58,631 nucleotides of DNA from an uncultured Trueperaceae bacterium. GTDB lineage: Bacteria; Deinococcota; Deinococci; Deinococcales; Trueperaceae. A model generated the notes under the pieces. The model did no database searches. It saw only the letters and a list, made by a program, of their open reading frames with translations, and was not told the origin of the DNA. This document shows positions 26,500 to 33,364 of this stretch, piece by piece. Position 1 is the stretch's first letter; every line of letters begins with the position of its first letter. A program made the position numbers and the translations under genes. The stretch spans positions 1-58,631 of the forward strand of contig CAJXOA010000012.1 of NCBI GenBank assembly GCA_913057685.1, read 5' to 3'.

Positions 26500-26721
26500 A
26501 TGCCGCGAATCACAGCTCGCATCAGTGACGACCTGGTCGTAGCGCTCGACGCAGCCGCGGACAAACTCCAGCGTTCGCGCGCAGACGTCGTGCGCCAGGC
26601 GGTCGAGTACTCCTTGGACGACTTCGACGACGTTGCGTTGGCCATGGCGGCCCTCCAAGACCCCGCCGACCCCGTTCTCGACTGGGTCGACGTGCGACGT
26701 GACCTACTCGGTCAAGAGTAA
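26500..26721 (+). CDS. CopG/RelB-like antitoxin
   Basis: 73 residues. MPRITARISDDLVVALDAAA followed by a helix-turn segment (SRADVVRQAVEYSL) is the ribbon-helix-helix DNA-binding part; the acidic C-terminus (DDFDDVALAMAALQDPADPVLDWVDV) should wrap the toxin. A perfect AGGAGGT site precedes the ATG. It overlaps the toxin gene by 23 bases. Third-position GC is visibly lower than in surrounding genes, which suggests acquisition from elsewhere. Confidence 0.85.
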   Translation: MPRITARISDDLVVALDAAADKLQRSRADVVRQAVEYSLDDFDDVALAMAALQDPADPVLDWVDVRRDLLGQE

Positions 26722-26959
26722 GCGCAGCGCCGCAAAGGCTCTGGCCCGCATCGATTCCGTCGACCGTGCGCGGCTGGTGGAGAAGATCGACTCCTTGGCC
26801 GAGCATCCTCACGTTGGATCGGCGCTCAAGGGGGAATGGAATGGGCTTCGTCGCGTACGTGTCGGCACGTACCGAATCGTATTCGAAGTGCGGAACGACG
26901 TCCTCACCGTCCTCGTCGTACGCGTTGGACATCGGCGTGGGATCGACCGAAACGGCTGA
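26699..26959 (+). CDS. RelE/ParE-superfamily toxin
   Basis: 86 residues. The core matches RelE: YSVKSKRSAAKALARID at the start, the helical stretch RLVEKIDSLAEHP, then LKGEWNGLRRVRVGTYRIVF and VLVVRVGHRRGIDR with the conserved Arg and Tyr of the RNase site (RVRVGTYR) and the terminal R of GHRRGIDR. RelE toxins cleave mRNA in the ribosome; ParE relatives hit gyrase. The basic C-terminus favours RelE, with moderate confidence. GTG at 26699 gives the family's normal length. Overlaps the antitoxin by 23 bases. Confidence 0.85.
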   Translation: MTYSVKSKRSAAKALARIDSVDRARLVEKIDSLAEHPHVGSALKGEWNGLRRVRVGTYRIVFEVRNDVLTVLVVRVGHRRGIDRNG

Positions 26960-27247: not shown

Positions 27248-27323
27248 TGGTGGGCCCTACTGGATTCGAACCAGTGACCAAACGATTATGAGTCGCCTGC
27301 TCTCACCACTGAGCTAAGGGCCC
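27248..27323 (-). tRNA. tRNA-Ile2 (anticodon CAU, read as lysidine-AU)
   Basis: A 76-base cloverleaf including an encoded 3' CCA (27248-27250). The acceptor stem is GGGCCC/GGGCCC, the D-arm contains AGCTCAGTGG, the anticodon loop is CTCATAA, and the T-arm contains GGTTCGAATCC. CAU could mean Met, but the body, especially GGCGACTCATAATCG next to GGTC, is nearly that of bacterial minor isoleucine tRNA (E. coli ileX type), which TilS converts to read AUA. About 290 bases on either side hold no gene. Confidence 0.93.
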
Positions 27324-27502
27324 CCATCGCGTGGCGCGCGGACGACCGAGCGCCCCCCAAGGATACGCCGAGTGCTGCGGTCTCCGCACGCGCCGAGCGA
27401 TGATCCCGATCACGTCCGAGTGCAGATGCGTGCACTCATGACATCGAGGACGCGTGTGTCGAGGGGTACGAACGCGGGATACACCACGTCCTCCCACCCG
27501 TG

Positions 27503-27537
27503 CCGTTCCACGTCCGCTCCGGGCGGACGTGGAACGG
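27503..27537. terminator. 15-base-pair perfect hairpin downstream of the large surface protein
   Basis: A perfect 15-base-pair inverted repeat with a 5-base loop lies 78 bases beyond the stop of the leftward surface-protein gene. It has no U-tract on either strand. Its position makes it the likely transcript end for that gene and a barrier before the tRNA. Confidence 0.55.
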
Positions 27538-27564
27538 TCCTCGCTTGCGCCGGGGCAATGCGGT

Positions 27565-27586
27565 CGCGCGCAGCGTGCGCGTTTTT
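27565..27586 (+). terminator. small hairpin followed by five T residues
   Basis: A 5-7 base-pair GC stem followed by TTTTT on the plus strand, a textbook intrinsic terminator shape. No plus-strand gene lies just upstream, so its purpose is unclear; it might stop stray antisense transcription toward the surface-protein gene. Confidence 0.35.
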
Positions 27587-27614
27587 CGCATCGACCCCGG
27601 CCACGAGCCTCCGA

Positions 27615-30600
27615 TCAAAACGGCCAATCGAGCGTGGTCGATACGCGTGCCGCACCATCCGCCGATGCCTCGAGGCGTGTTTCGAGGGTTCCGCGTTCCC
27701 CCTGAACGGAGGCGTGATGGTGAAGTTCGAGGCTGGTCCGCGTGAGCGCTTCGTTCCGGTCGTAGCTCACGGTCACGCCCAGTCCGTCCTCGCCCTTCGT
27801 CGATCGCCGCTCGTAGGTGACGTCGGCGCCGTACCCGCAGACGACGTCCTCACCCCACAAGGCTCCATCGCAACGGACGTGCGGCGCGAGCTCGAAGCGC
27901 TGACGTGGGCCCTCGTCTCGCTCGCCCGCGTTCCCTGCGGACGGCTCGTACACCAGGATCGGTTCGGCGAACCCTCGAAGCAGACTCACGTCGGGAATCT
28001 CGACGGTGCCCGCTTCGTTCCATGGTGTTTGGGTAGCCACGACGTCGGCGTCCGCCGCCATCGCCCGCGAAACGCTCAGCCCAGCACGCGGCGTGAGCGA
28101 CCATCTCCCGACCCGAATCGTGTTCGACGCCGCCACACCCCCGTGGAGACTTGCACTGCCGTGATCGCCGGTCACAGCGACGGGGTCGCCCGATGGCAAG
28201 AACTGGACGTCGAACGTCGTCCGGTGCACACCGGCGAACGCGAAGTAGTCGAGGTGCAGCCCGAGGTCGAACCGGCGCGCTCCGTACACGCCCGCATGCA
28301 CCCCCATGCCGGCCATGGTTCCCTCCGCTCGCTCCGTGACCGCCGATCGCGACGCACGGAGGTCGGCGGCAACGCCCCGAAGTTCGTCCATGCTTGGCCA
28401 GGCCTCCCACCGCACCGTGGCCTCCAGGGTCCGTTGGTGGCCGAAATCGACCAGGTGCGATGCCGAAAACCGACCAGACATGGAGCGCTCGATGCCCGTT
28501 CGACAGTCGTAGTGCACGGCGCTGCCATCCACCTCCGCGCTCCACGGCTCCGAGCCGCCCTCGGCGTATCCGTCCCACCCGACCTCGGGGGAACGCCGAC
28601 ACACGTCGTGGTCGCCGTCCATGGGGGCGTCTCCCTTCGTCACCGCGAGCAGCGTCACGTGCGGCGACCCCCCCTGTTCGCCGGAGACGGTTCCCGGGTG
28701 AACGCCGGCCCGAAGGCGCTCGGGGGCGACGCCGTTCGCAACGAGCGCGCGGAGCACGGTCTCGGCCCGCGACCGCGCCTGCTCGCGCTCGGCCTGGGCG
28801 GCGTCCGCGTCCTGGGTGACGCCGGCCACCTCCACGTCGAGGGCGGGACAGCGAAGCAACGTCTCCGACCACGCCTCGATCGTGGCGTCGGAGGGCGAGG
28901 CGATGGCGTCGGAATCCGGTTGGAACACGACCGGGCGTGCCACGGCCTGCCGCGCCAACGTCGATCGGCAGGCGTGCGATGGGTCGCCGTCCGCGCGATC
29001 GAGCGCTTGACGCGCATCGCGGGCCATGCCGGATAGGAAATCGTTCTGTTGTTCCGTGGCGACGCGGAGACGCTCGTGCAGAAGGTCCGCCAACGGATCT
29101 CGAATCCGGTCGACGAGCGCGTCGCTCACCTCCACCCCGGGAAGGTCGACGTCCAGGGCGTCGTAGCGAGGATCCTCGGACGTCACCGTCGCCGTCGGTT
29201 GGCAGGCGTGCGGACCCTCGGGGGCGCCGTCGCGGACCGCGACGACGTCCACCAGCCGTTCGTCGGCGAACGCGTCCGGCGTGAACACCACCGTGGTGGG
29301 TCGAACGTCGCACTGGTCGTCGCCCGCGAGCGTGATGACCACGTCGTGCGTGGGGACCCCTTCGAGTCGAAGGCCGAGCTGGCCGTGGTCGTCCTGCCCC
29401 TCCATCGCGTGAAGGTCGTGTGGCGTGACGCGCACCCCGGCTGCGTCGTCGTCCCGCACGGTCGCCGTCGCCGACACCGTGGGCGTGATGGGGGTCGTGA
29501 CCCCATCTTCGGTGTAGCGAAGCAGATCCAACACCACGGTCTCATCGCCTTCGATCCGCTCGTCATCCACCACGGGCAGGGAGATCCGGACGCTCGTCTC
29601 TCCTGCCGGCAGCACCACCGTGCCGGTCGCCTCCGCAAGCACGTCCGCCCCAGGCTCGCTGGTGCCACCCAACGCGTACTCGAACACCCGATCGGCGGGG
29701 GCGGGGCCGTCGACCGTCATCTCGAACACCACGTGACCGTCGTCCTCGTCCGGGCTTTCGCGACCGTCTTGCACGACGGTGAGATCGGGAGCGACGTCGG
29801 GCTCGACGTCGGGCTCGTCTGTGTCGCCGTCCTGCACCGTCGCCGTAGCGGTGAGCGGGGGGGCGAAGGGGGTCGTGACCTCGTCTTCGGTATAGCGAAG
29901 CAGGTCCAGGACCACGGTTTCCTCCTCTTCGATCAGCTCGTCGTCCACCACGGGAAGCGAGATCCGGACGCTCGTCTCTCCTGCCGGCAGCACCACCGTG
30001 CCCGTCGCATCCGCGACCAGATCCACCCCGGGCTCACTGGTGCCGCTCAGCGCGTACTCGAACCGCTGATCGGCGGCCGCGGGGTCGTTCGCCGTAATCT
30101 CGAACACCACGTGACCGTCGTCCTCGTCGGGGCTTTCGCGACCGTCTTGCACGACGGTGACGGCGTGGGTGATCTCGCAGTCGGTGAGGGCCACGTTGTT
30201 GCCGAACACGTGCGGGTCGCCGGCTTCGATGACGAACTCGTCGTAGTAGGCGTTGGCGGTGGGCGAGAAGTCCACCAGAACTCCGGTCGTGCCGTCCTCT
30301 TCGGACCCGATGAAGGCGGGGTTGTCCGGAAGCAGGTTCGTCACGTCGAGACTGCCTTCGTTTTCGGCCGTCACGATGGTCGTGCCGGGCGGGGGAACGT
30401 ACTCGACGTCGAACGTATCCTCGATCTGTGCGAACCACTGGAACTCGCCGTCGCTTCCGTCTCGGACGATGCGGATGTCGTTGGCGGTGCCCACGTCGGT
30501 GTTGCTCCCGCCGGAACTGTTCGTGACGACGATCCCGCCACCGGGCACGATCCGGCCGTCGTCCTCGCAGTAGAAGAAGCCTTGCGGGTCGTACTCGGCC

Positions 30601-32537
30601 GGCGCCGGATCGATCGCATCGGGCACGCCGTCGCCATCGCTATCGACGTACCCCGCGTCCGTGGCTTCGCTGCCCGGGAGGACGTCTTCGATCAGGTCTT
30701 GGATGGTGAGGGTGAATCGCGCGGTCACGGGGGTTCCGCTCGGGTCGAGCAGGGGGTCGCCTGCGTCGTCGGTCGCCTGGAACACCGCCTCGTAGACGTT
30801 GTCGGCGTCGGCGTCGGTGGGGGATTCGTAGTCCGGAGGTTCGTTCGAGGCGTCGCCATCGGGGTCGAAGAACACGAGACCCGTCGAGGTGACCTCGAAC
30901 AGGTGCCCGTCGGGGGCGCTGGCATCCGTCCCCGTCACGACCTGCCATCCCCCGATCGGCATGTCGGCGGTGATTTGGCCTGCGTAACTACGTCCCTTCA
31001 CCGGGTCGAACTGGTTGTCCGGATTGAAGGTCGACGCGTCGCCGTTTTCGCGCGTCCCGTCGACGACGACGTAGTTTTCCTCCGGGAGGGTTTGTGCGAA
31101 CTCGGTTCCGACCGTGAGTCGGGTCGGCCCGTCCGGCCCGGTCAGGGTGGGGGCTCTCGGCACCACGTCGACCTGGATGGACGTCGGGGTGGCGTTGCCG
31201 GAGGCGTCCGTGCCGATGACGGTCACGTCGTGCGTGTTGTCGCCGTCGTGGTCTTCGGGGTTGGCGTGACTCCGTTCGGTCTTGAAGCGGAGCTCGCCGG
31301 AGGCGTCGATCTCGAACAGGTCCGCATCGGTGCCCGATAGGCTCCAGGTGACCGGCTCGTCGGCTTGGAACCGGTCGATCGGCTCCGCGCTGTATTCGGT
31401 GTGGGTGTACGTGCCCGCGGCGCCATCCCCCGGCCCATCGGCCGTCACGGTCGGGACGGTCGCGTCGGTGTCGCTGGTCCCCCCCGGAGGGTCCACCACG
31501 ACGGTCGCGGAGACGTCGGTGGTGTTGCCTCCCAGATCGACGGCCTCGACGTGGACCTGGTAGCGGTTGTCGCCGTCGGCGTCGCTCGGCTCGGCGTACG
31601 CGGGTAGGTCGTTGAACCGGAGTGTCCCGTCCTCATCGAGCGTGAACCGGTCGGCGTCGGGGCCGGACAGCGTGAAGCTCTCGAGCGGCTCGTTGGGAGC
31701 GATCGTCATGGCGGCTTGGTCCGTGGCGTGTCCGTCCTGCACCGAGGCGAACATGGCCGAATTCGTGACGGTGCCACCGAAACCGTCCGGGCCGCTCAGG
31801 CGCGGAGGGACGTCGTCCACGACCTCGACCGTGAGGGGGTCGACACCCTCCTCGGGGATGGGAGCCAGGAAGAACGACATCTTCGCACTCCGGGAGCCGT
31901 CGATGTCGTCCATGTAGATGGTGAACCGCTCGACCGTCGGGACGGGACGAAAACTGGCCGCCTCCCTTTTCGGATTTTCGCCCCCGCTGGTGTTGATGAG
32001 GATGTCGCCAACGCCGGGGACGACACGCAACCTGTCCCTCGAATCGGAATTCCAGGAAACGGGAACGCCCGGGTCGAGCGTGAAGATCTCGAGGCCGTCG
32101 GAGTTCGCGGCGATCCGGAGGTCGGTTTCGTCGGTCCACTTGCCGGGGACGCTGGCGATGAACGAATCGCGCGGACCGGAATCGTCCATGTCCTCGATGT
32201 TGTTGAAGTCGATCTGTTGGATGGTGAACCCTTGCGCCGCCAGCGTGAAGTTCCCGGGGGCCGAAAGGTTGACTTGGCCATTGTCACCGTTCAGCGTTGC
32301 GTCACCGCTTACGACGATTTGGTACCCGTTGTCGGCGGTGAGGACCATCTCGTCGCCGTTCATCGTGATCTCGTCGAAGGCCAGTTCGGTGCTTTGGGCG
32401 TTCCCCACGCCGGAGGCGGCCCACCCGAAGAGCAGGAGGCTCGCGGTCAGTACGGTGAGGTGCGGGCCGAACCGTTGCGAGCGTGCGTGGGCCGCTCGGG
32501 TCTCGGACGTCGGACGGTGGGGGGGGAAGATCTTCAT
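27615..32537 (-). CDS. giant surface protein: cadherin-like, Calx-beta, OmpA-like and C-terminal beta-barrel domains
   Basis: 1,640 residues. Order: long signal peptide (hydrophobic residues 27-45, cleavage near 47), a beta-rich N-terminal domain, three cadherin-like repeats (LDEDGTLRF, IDASGELRF and VTSTGLVFF cores, each with an A/P-DADGDN calcium-type motif), a thrombospondin type 3-like DSDGDGVPDAID (about 633), two nearly identical Calx-beta domains (about 793-1045), an OmpA-like domain (VVFQPDSDAIASPS to VLRALVANGV, about 1200-1287), and a C-terminal barrel (from about 1353) ending in Phe. This implies outer-membrane insertion and a calcium-stabilised extracellular stalk. The ATG at 32537 is chosen over a frame open to 32684 because GGAGCG precedes it and the signal peptide follows. 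Likely an adhesin; the partner is unknown. Confidence 0.85.
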   Translation of the reverse strand: MKIFPPHRPTSETRAAHARSQRFGPHLTVLTASLLLFGWAASGVGNAQSTELAFDEITMNGDEMVLTADNGYQIVVSGDATLNGDNGQVNLSAPGNFTLAAQGFTIQQIDFNNIEDMDDSGPRDSFIASVPGKWTDETDLRIAANSDGLEIFTLDPGVPVSWNSDSRDRLRVVPGVGDILINTSGGENPKREAASFRPVPTVERFTIYMDDIDGSRSAKMSFFLAPIPEEGVDPLTVEVVDDVPPRLSGPDGFGGTVTNSAMFASVQDGHATDQAAMTIAPNEPLESFTLSGPDADRFTLDEDGTLRFNDLPAYAEPSDADGDNRYQVHVEAVDLGGNTTDVSATVVVDPPGGTSDTDATVPTVTADGPGDGAAGTYTHTEYSAEPIDRFQADEPVTWSLSGTDADLFEIDASGELRFKTERSHANPEDHDGDNTHDVTVIGTDASGNATPTSIQVDVVPRAPTLTGPDGPTRLTVGTEFAQTLPEENYVVVDGTRENGDASTFNPDNQFDPVKGRSYAGQITADMPIGGWQVVTGTDASAPDGHLFEVTSTGLVFFDPDGDASNEPPDYESPTDADADNVYEAVFQATDDAGDPLLDPSGTPVTARFTLTIQDLIEDVLPGSEATDAGYVDSDGDGVPDAIDPAPAEYDPQGFFYCEDDGRIVPGGGIVVTNSSGGSNTDVGTANDIRIVRDGSDGEFQWFAQIEDTFDVEYVPPPGTTIVTAENEGSLDVTNLLPDNPAFIGSEEDGTTGVLVDFSPTANAYYDEFVIEAGDPHVFGNNVALTDCEITHAVTVVQDGRESPDEDDGHVVFEITANDPAAADQRFEYALSGTSEPGVDLVADATGTVVLPAGETSVRISLPVVDDELIEEEETVVLDLLRYTEDEVTTPFAPPLTATATVQDGDTDEPDVEPDVAPDLTVVQDGRESPDEDDGHVVFEMTVDGPAPADRVFEYALGGTSEPGADVLAEATGTVVLPAGETSVRISLPVVDDERIEGDETVVLDLLRYTEDGVTTPITPTVSATATVRDDDAAGVRVTPHDLHAMEGQDDHGQLGLRLEGVPTHDVVITLAGDDQCDVRPTTVVFTPDAFADERLVDVVAVRDGAPEGPHACQPTATVTSEDPRYDALDVDLPGVEVSDALVDRIRDPLADLLHERLRVATEQQNDFLSGMARDARQALDRADGDPSHACRSTLARQAVARPVVFQPDSDAIASPSDATIEAWSETLLRCPALDVEVAGVTQDADAAQAEREQARSRAETVLRALVANGVAPERLRAGVHPGTVSGEQGGSPHVTLLAVTKGDAPMDGDHDVCRRSPEVGWDGYAEGGSEPWSAEVDGSAVHYDCRTGIERSMSGRFSASHLVDFGHQRTLEATVRWEAWPSMDELRGVAADLRASRSAVTERAEGTMAGMGVHAGVYGARRFDLGLHLDYFAFAGVHRTTFDVQFLPSGDPVAVTGDHGSASLHGGVAASNTIRVGRWSLTPRAGLSVSRAMAADADVVATQTPWNEAGTVEIPDVSLLRGFAEPILVYEPSAGNAGERDEGPRQRFELAPHVRCDGALWGEDVVCGYGADVTYERRSTKGEDGLGVTVSYDRNEALTRTSLELHHHASVQGERGTLETRLEASADGAARVSTTLDWPF
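29405..30160 (-). repeat. tandem 378-base duplication encoding two Calx-beta domains
   Basis: Two in-frame units 378 bases (126 codons) apart. For example, the segment starting at 29581 recurs at 29959, and the segment at 29721 recurs at 30099, with only scattered base differences. Each unit encodes VVQDGRESPDEDDGHVVFE and the Calx-beta core. The similarity at DNA level indicates a recent or gene-converted duplication. Confidence 0.85.
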
Positions 32538-33364
32538 GGCTCGCTCCAATGGCCGTTCGGCGTAGGGTGGTCGTACACGCGACGTGCAGGTAGGCGTTTG
32601 GTCGTACCCGGAGGTCCGGTTCCGACGGTCGCGATCGAGGTGGGTGTGGAGACCGTCCGGCCGGTCTGGAGCCGCTTGGCGCATGCCGGTGCGTCGCGAA
32701 CGTTCACGGTGCAGGGTTCGCCCGAGGCCGGCGGGGGCATGCCCGCGCGACGGAGTTGCGCGCGGCGTGGGAGCGATCGTCGATCGCGCCGGTGCGCGGA
32801 GCCTCCCCGCACCGGCGGTTTCAACCTCTCACCGCGTCCCCGGGTGCGGTCCAGTGGCCGGCGACGTCGTGCGGCACCGCCGCGGTCGACGTGGCTGCGG
32901 TGGCCTGGCGGGGAATCGCCGTGCCCTCGGACCGGAGCCTCGTCACGGCCGGATGGGTACGTACGAAAGCGTCGAGGTTCGGAACCGTCACCGACGGCGA
33001 CGCGACGCGCCTCGGCGTGCGCGACGTGAATGAATCGTGGGACGTGGGACGGCGCGGCGCCTGCATGACGGCGGACGGTAACAAGGTTGTGTAATACATG
33101 GCAAGTATCTGTAAGGGCTATTTCGTGTCGTGTGCCGCGTGTGTCCACGTCATCGCGGGGTTCACGTGACGCGCCCGTCGTCGGGGTGGCCCTCGTCGCG
33201 TTCGAGCCCAACCCCACACCGGTGCGTCGGCCCCTCCCACCCCCGAACCCCACGGTGCGGCGTGAAGCGCGCTCCACCGGCACGGACCCGCGCGCGCCGA
33301 GCCGGTGGGCATCCGCACCCGATTCCTGGGCGGTCGTCGTGCACGCTGGGGGTGGAGGCGACCC
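32538..33364. other. 827-base region without a convincing gene
   Basis: Open frames here (for example 32584-33033 plus, 32821-33099 minus) are arginine-rich or lack a ribosome binding site and resemble no family. The first part should be the promoter and leader of the surface-protein gene. Positions 33076-33125 are unusually A/T-rich for this genome (GTAACAAGGTTGTGTAATAC and on), with -10-like words on both strands, and are the most likely promoter area for one or both flanking genes. Confidence 0.5.

Follow-up and report, generated by a model that had tools for sequence, protein, structure and literature searches.

The window analyzed here, a whole stretch of 58,631 nucleotides, encodes a putative 1640-residue adhesin in which an OmpA-like domain lies between a conserved pre-barrel helix and a C-terminal autotransporter-type beta-barrel. 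We propose, with a probability of about 0.6, that this protein is a monomeric autotransporter-type adhesin whose OmpA domain sits in the periplasm at the turn from the helix to barrel strand 1, and that the domain binds the cell wall in relatives of the adhesin, the wall binding having been lost or changed in the window protein. The adhesin is an unusual variant of the known autotransporter-type adhesins and not a new kind of wall anchor.

Table 1. Positions in the window of the adhesin gene, the parts of its product and the surrounding islet.
Feature	Position	Strand	Basis
Whole adhesin gene, 1640 aa	27615..32537	-	Open reading frame; orthologue starts in G004 and G001
Signal peptide, about residues 1-48	32394..32537	-	Sequence reading; same layout in both orthologues
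N-terminal domain, residues 49-250, genus-specific, possible tip	31788..32393	-	Identity among orthologues; no Pfam family
Ig/cadherin-like region, residues 251-629, acidic motifs	30651..31787	-	Weak Pfam Ig-like matches only
TSP3-like motif and YDPQGFFYCEDDGRI module, residues 630-800	30138..30650	-	Conservation; no Pfam family
Calx-beta-like domains, residues 801-1137	29127..30137	-	Pfam just under cut-off; weak matches to solved structures
Pre-barrel helix region, residues 1138-1189	28971..29126	-	AlphaFold2; kept in relatives with and without OmpA
OmpA-like insertion, residues 1190-1305, Cys1190 and Cys1230	28623..28970	-	Pfam core 1205-1276; alignment; AlphaFold2; homologue profile
Gln1242 at peptidoglycan-binding Asp position (A. 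baumannii OmpA D271)	28812..28814	-	15-protein alignment; PMC6572160
Arg1257 at position of A. baumannii OmpA R286, retained	28767..28769	-	15-protein alignment
C-terminal autotransporter-type beta-barrel region, residues 1306-1640, terminal Phe	27618..28622	-	PF03797, AlphaFold2, Foldseek
tRNA-Met flanking islet	27248..27323	-	Locus comparison
5.9-kb islet, adhesin its only apparent gene	27373..33294	.	Missing in sister genome G003

The open reading frame is intact from an ATG at 32537 to a stop codon at 27615-27617, and the orthologues in G004 and G001, both genomes of the same genus, have a start codon at the equivalent place. The same chain in two further genomes also rules out a fusion artefact of a single assembly. 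By reading of the sequence, the protein begins with a Sec-type signal peptide, in which a long N-region leads into a hydrophobic core ending GNAQS. The original prediction of one chain carrying a surface-type passenger, an OmpA domain and a barrel ending in Phe was borne out by Pfam (PF00691 and PF03797) and by AlphaFold2, and the structure prediction that it had suggested as a check supports a helix, an OmpA fold and a barrel in the C-terminal part. This model of residues 1138-1640, built with 14 relatives, has a mean pLDDT of 78.9 and a pTM of 0.74. It places a 45-residue helix (residues 1140-1184; model residues 3-47) ahead of the OmpA part (model residues 50-162), where strands and helices alternate, mostly at pLDDT 74-89; from there strands follow one another without a break as far as the C-terminus, at pLDDT 80-96 in most blocks, and the last residue is Phe. 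PF00691 matches residues 1205-1276 with 30.2 bits against a cut-off of 27.2. Likewise, a profile of five homologues matched 70 PDB sequences at E<=0.001; all 60 matches listed align over the OmpA part, and the structures matched are those of OmpA, Pal and MotB. A chance OmpA match is ruled out by this homologue profile and the predicted fold. The domain is the single OmpA domain of the genome.

The barrel is a single chain of about 300 residues, C-terminal to the passenger. PF03797 (Autotransporter) matches residues 1395-1492 with 27.4 bits against a cut-off of 26; the match is partial, covering 98 of the 255 profile positions (positions 50-147), and the same family matches 8 of 15 members of the adhesin family at E<=0.01. 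PF03895 (YadA-anchor) gave no match up to E=1 in the adhesin. Foldseek retrieved many outer-membrane barrels, with CdiB at the top and the autotransporter translocators NalP, BrkA, Hbp, EspP and EstA following, at modest TM-scores of at most about 0.5. The secondary structure of the AlphaFold2 model gives approximately 14-16 barrel strands. Classical autotransporter barrels have 12 strands, and CdiB is a 16-stranded two-partner-secretion barrel; the modelled strand count and CdiB as the best structural match leave strict membership of the type Va class open to doubt. The barrel region contains the cysteines Cys1313/1345 and Cys1556/1567, and the helix and barrel with their conserved Cys pairs are homologous to a family in Rhodobacterales, with approximately 27-32% identity over the barrel and E values down to 1e-31.

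How widely is this arrangement distributed? Two further members of the genus encode orthologues of the C-terminal third (64% and 58% identity); the other 56 genomes sampled from the family and order have none. Full-length matches to the helix, OmpA domain and barrel were found in 3 of 111 Deinococcota genomes, all of one genus (3 of its 5 genomes), against 9 of 393 Rhodobacterales genomes, which hold 10 such proteins in the profile search. One more is encoded in another pseudomonadote (398 Pseudomonadota genomes were sampled) and one more on a Roseivivax plasmid, so that 12 intact examples are known to us in marine proteobacteria outside Deinococcota, in Rhodobacterales and one other pseudomonadote. 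The suggestion of a Deinococcota peculiarity did not survive this search for the same domain order, and a system spanning the phylum is ruled out by the confinement to one genus. Few genomes of the order encode any OmpA domain (9 of 111), and neither Thermus composti nor Deinobacterium chartae, the two Deinococcota controls, is among the matching control genomes. No relatives of the adhesin were found on the viral contigs searched. In one copy (G307:C11:21177-22621; L077 and L095) the helix-OmpA and barrel pieces overlap in different frames, and this copy is either frameshifted or misassembled.

Outside the phylum the barrel occurs in Rhodobacterales, plasmids included, in two arrangements. 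In Phaeobacter, Tropicibacter, Leisingera, Mameliella and others the helix and barrel are present without an OmpA domain. In Roseivivax, an uncultured alphaproteobacterium (L032) and others, OmpA lies between them; the OmpA part of the L032 model is poorly predicted, and this model was used for the helix and barrel only. The OmpA-less relatives match the helix-OmpA-barrel profile as two pieces, model positions 2-45 and approximately 172-503, leaving the OmpA stretch unmatched. Because the two pieces flank the OmpA stretch, the OmpA domain reads from these sequences as a clean insertion into a standing helix-barrel framework, or as one lost from it, and the barrel tree does not settle which. 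In that tree the OmpA label is clustered (4 changes against a shuffled mean of 12.1), and the window genus is without firm placement. The OmpA-less relatives on Tropicibacter, Parasedimentitalea and Leisingera plasmids (L018, L019 and L021) adjoin gsp type II secretion genes and an A24 prepilin peptidase gene. The window genome itself has two more distant barrel paralogues without OmpA, L042 (G000:C30:25154-25705) and L044 (G000:C59:547-1095), and a relative in G004 (L005) carries a long TSP3-like stalk.

Does the OmpA domain of the adhesin bind the wall? In A. baumannii OmpA, Asp271 and Arg286 are needed for diaminopimelate binding (PMC6572160). We aligned 15 proteins, the 12 proteobacterial insertions and the 3 proteins of the window genus. 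HTD...R...NRRVE/D, including the binding Asp and Arg, is kept in every one of the proteobacterial insertions. The three window-genus proteins lack the Asp, which is replaced by Gln in the window protein and by Asn or Ser in the orthologues; the NRRVEF motif is absent from all three as well, and the Arg is kept. Since the binding Asp and NRRVEF are kept in the relatives and missing in the window genus, wall anchoring is likely in the former and doubtful for the window protein. The predicted fibre anchored to both the outer membrane and the cell wall is thus, with the binding Asp lost, the weakest part of the original prediction for this organism. The domain may bind some ligand, Arg1257 being retained. 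Its dN/dS values are 0.58 and 0.35, those of the barrel somewhat lower (0.31 and 0.28); the window-genus OmpA domain is constrained by purifying selection and not in free decay.

The cell wall of the host lineage bears on the same site. The MurE of the window genome reads EDAR at the position at which diaminopimelate-adding enzymes carry DNPR. The wall of Thermus contains L-ornithine instead of diaminopimelate (PMC10836841), and attempts at identifying a peptidoglycan in Truepera failed (PMC3072082). The wall of the window lineage is probably without diaminopimelate. The genome also encodes, on another contig, an SLH protein (L131), its sole SLH match, which resembles SlpA/OmpM, the SLH-type proteins linking the outer membrane and wall in Deinococcota (PMC9388160).

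Upstream of the helix, the prediction had listed cadherin-like, TSP3 and Calx-beta domains in addition to the OmpA domain and barrel, which both stand. The passenger is long and rich in beta structure. Two Calx-beta stretches, in tandem, fall just under the Pfam cut-off (24.8 bits against 27); NCX Calx-beta domains of known structure match weakly, which supports the assignment. The cadherin and TSP3 families gave no Pfam match up to E=1 in the adhesin, and the Ig-like matches are weak; these two entries of the list come down to isolated acidic motifs, DADGDN near residue 320 and DSDGDGVPD near residue 632. The N-terminal domain, 75% identical in both orthologues, has no counterpart in the relatives compared. 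The best conserved stretch of the protein is not the barrel: the TSP3-like/YDPQGFFYCEDDGRI module (from about residue 630 or 645 to 800) shows 86-87% identity within the genus and 39-59% to Rhodobacterales, against the 27-32% given above for the barrel. Across phyla, the YDPQG(Y/F)FYCEDDGRI/TSP3-like module (window 30138-30650; L017, L018, L022-L031 and others) is more conserved than the barrel that accompanies it. Among the loci read, the DPQG(Y/F)FYC module was found in OmpA-less Rhodobacterales and in the window genus, and in none of the OmpA-bearing relatives outside the genus, for several of which the locus covers only 500 residues upstream, where a more distant module could be missed. 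Within the sample, two features that elsewhere occur separately come together in the window genus.

The adhesin gene lies on an islet next to tRNA-Met. In the sister genome G003 the tRNA directly abuts the baeRF gene, an empty site, and in G004 the gene order is the same as in the window. The 7-base sequence CGCCGAG is present at both ends of the islet segment in the window, and the G+C content of the adhesin gene is 67.8%, compared with 73.3% for the rest of the window. The empty site, the low G+C content and the distribution of relatives suggest an acquired islet; a loss in G003 would look alike. From the distribution and the islet, not from the tree, we infer a gain from Rhodobacterales. 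The neighbours identified around the adhesin encode an HpcH/HpaI aldolase, ParE, baeRF, a PRTase and GreA, and are not secretion genes; the ParE-type toxin gene (window 26633-26959, plus strand) lies between the aldolase gene and tRNA-Met. In G003 a tyrosine-recombinase-like integrase gene (L143, 9482-10402, minus strand) borders this tRNA-Met on the side away from the islet site, so the tRNA appears to be a site of integration within the genus.

What is the likely topology of the chain? In classical autotransporters the helix in the barrel lumen leads to the periplasmic side, where the chain turns back as strand 1. By analogy, the OmpA domain of the adhesin, inserted at this turn, would be periplasmic. 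An OmpA domain on the passenger side of an autotransporter-type barrel had appeared paradoxical; the paradox is gone on alignment with the relatives, because the domain lies after the conserved helix, at the turn that is periplasmic in classical autotransporters. We propose that the passenger (residues ~49-1137) is exported and projects outward, and that the 45-residue helix occupies or threads the barrel lumen, while the OmpA-derived domain would form an insertion at the turn to the first barrel strand and hang into the periplasm. The OmpA domain of the Rhodobacterales relatives is canonical and would hold the fibre to the wall by binding peptidoglycan; that of the window genus would most likely be a periplasmic cap, a spacer or a site of protein contact, its hold on the wall having been lost or altered. 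An external position, in which the domain would leave the cell as the end of the passenger and serve as the base of a stalk or as a fold of autochaperone type, seems quite improbable. The domain does precede the barrel in the sequence as other passenger domains do, Cys1190 and Cys1230 could give it a stable fold, and losing wall-binding residues would be harmless there; however, it comes after and not before the conserved pre-barrel helix, and the intact wall-binding residues of the 12 proteobacterial insertions, which fit a periplasmic place, make sense only in the periplasm.

A periplasmic OmpA domain could still anchor the window protein to the wall, perhaps after re-specialisation for a wall that lacks diaminopimelate. 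The OmpA fold in the AlphaFold2 model, the retained Arg1257 and purifying selection agree with this, and given the ornithine-containing wall of Thermus and the EDAR of the genome's own MurE, a changed pocket could be adaptive. We consider it unlikely, however: the Asp of an OmpA domain should contact an amino group and the Arg a carboxylate, the latter absent in ornithine, and losing the Asp yet keeping the Arg is the opposite of what a simple adaptation to ornithine would give; NRRVEF is gone too, and the attempts on the wall type of Truepera failed. We regard as very improbable a barrel that is an anchor only and not a self-export pore, the passenger leaving by another system (e.g., type II secretion) or the N-terminus staying periplasmic, as reported for truncated FapF (PMC9581022). 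CdiB as the first Foldseek match and the gsp genes beside the OmpA-less relatives of Tropicibacter, Parasedimentitalea and Leisingera would suit such a barrel, but there are no secretion genes among the neighbours identified around the window gene, and PF03797 scores over its cut-off. We thus favour the self-exporting adhesin with a periplasmic OmpA insertion. Relatives with and without the insertion, and with intact or altered residues, form a natural set for testing what a surface fibre owes to its anchoring in the wall, and the Deinococcota case would show the fate of a diaminopimelate-binding domain where the wall is probably without that amino acid.

Finally, how does the adhesin compare with known systems? 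A new topology had been proposed: in the literature covered, which leaves out most subscription journals, we found no description of a wall-binding domain placed between helix and barrel, but the same order recurs in the 12 proteobacterial proteins. Several systems join an outer-membrane barrel to a wall-binding domain. The SlpA/OmpM connectors of Deinococcota (PMC9388160) do so with an N-terminal SLH domain and have no surface passenger, whereas the adhesin has no SLH domain and the SLH protein of the genome is separate. Inverse autotransporters (intimin, invasin and YeeJ) carry a LysM domain ahead of the barrel, which in YeeJ binds the wall (PMC5595812). Like the adhesin, those with LysM have a single chain that unites a surface adhesin, a barrel and a wall-binding domain in the periplasm; their order, however, is LysM, barrel, passenger, while the barrel of the adhesin is C-terminal, placing it outside this class, and one of its binding residues is lost. 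Trimeric autotransporters may have extra C-terminal SLH (Veillonella) or OmpA (Streptobacillus) domains after the barrel (PMC7549365). They too combine adhesin, barrel and wall-binding domain, PF00691 included, but are trimeric, whereas the domain of the adhesin precedes a monomer-type barrel that PF03895 does not match. If the insertion is periplasmic, wall-anchored adhesins are built in at least three ways, with LysM before the barrel, with SLH or OmpA after it, or with OmpA between helix and barrel. Tentatively, and at somewhat less than even odds, we suggest that an OmpA domain spliced between lumen helix and strand 1 is this third way of joining fibre, barrel and wall-binding domain, the chain leading from outside the cell down its own barrel as far as the wall, and from there returning into the barrel, and that one Deinococcota genus has kept this mainly proteobacterial device in a new periplasmic role after its grip on diaminopimelate was lost. 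With classical type Va autotransporters (PF03797) the adhesin shares the signal peptide, N-terminal passenger, helix and C-terminal barrel with an aromatic end residue; it differs in the OmpA domain between helix and barrel, in a barrel likely of more than 12 strands and in a partial, marginal Pfam match. The Rhodobacterales helix-barrel adhesins (e.g., Roseivivax WP_152453397.1 and Phaeobacter UWS81762.1), annotated as 'Ig-like domain-containing protein' or 'OmpA family protein', match the window adhesin in helix and barrel, some of them with OmpA between the two, and their OmpA-less clade has the TSP3-like/DPQG(Y/F)FYC/Calx-beta module in common with the window adhesin. In comparison to this family, the window OmpA domain is without the binding Asp, and the pairing of the DPQG-FYC module with OmpA is, among the relatives sampled, confined to the window genus.
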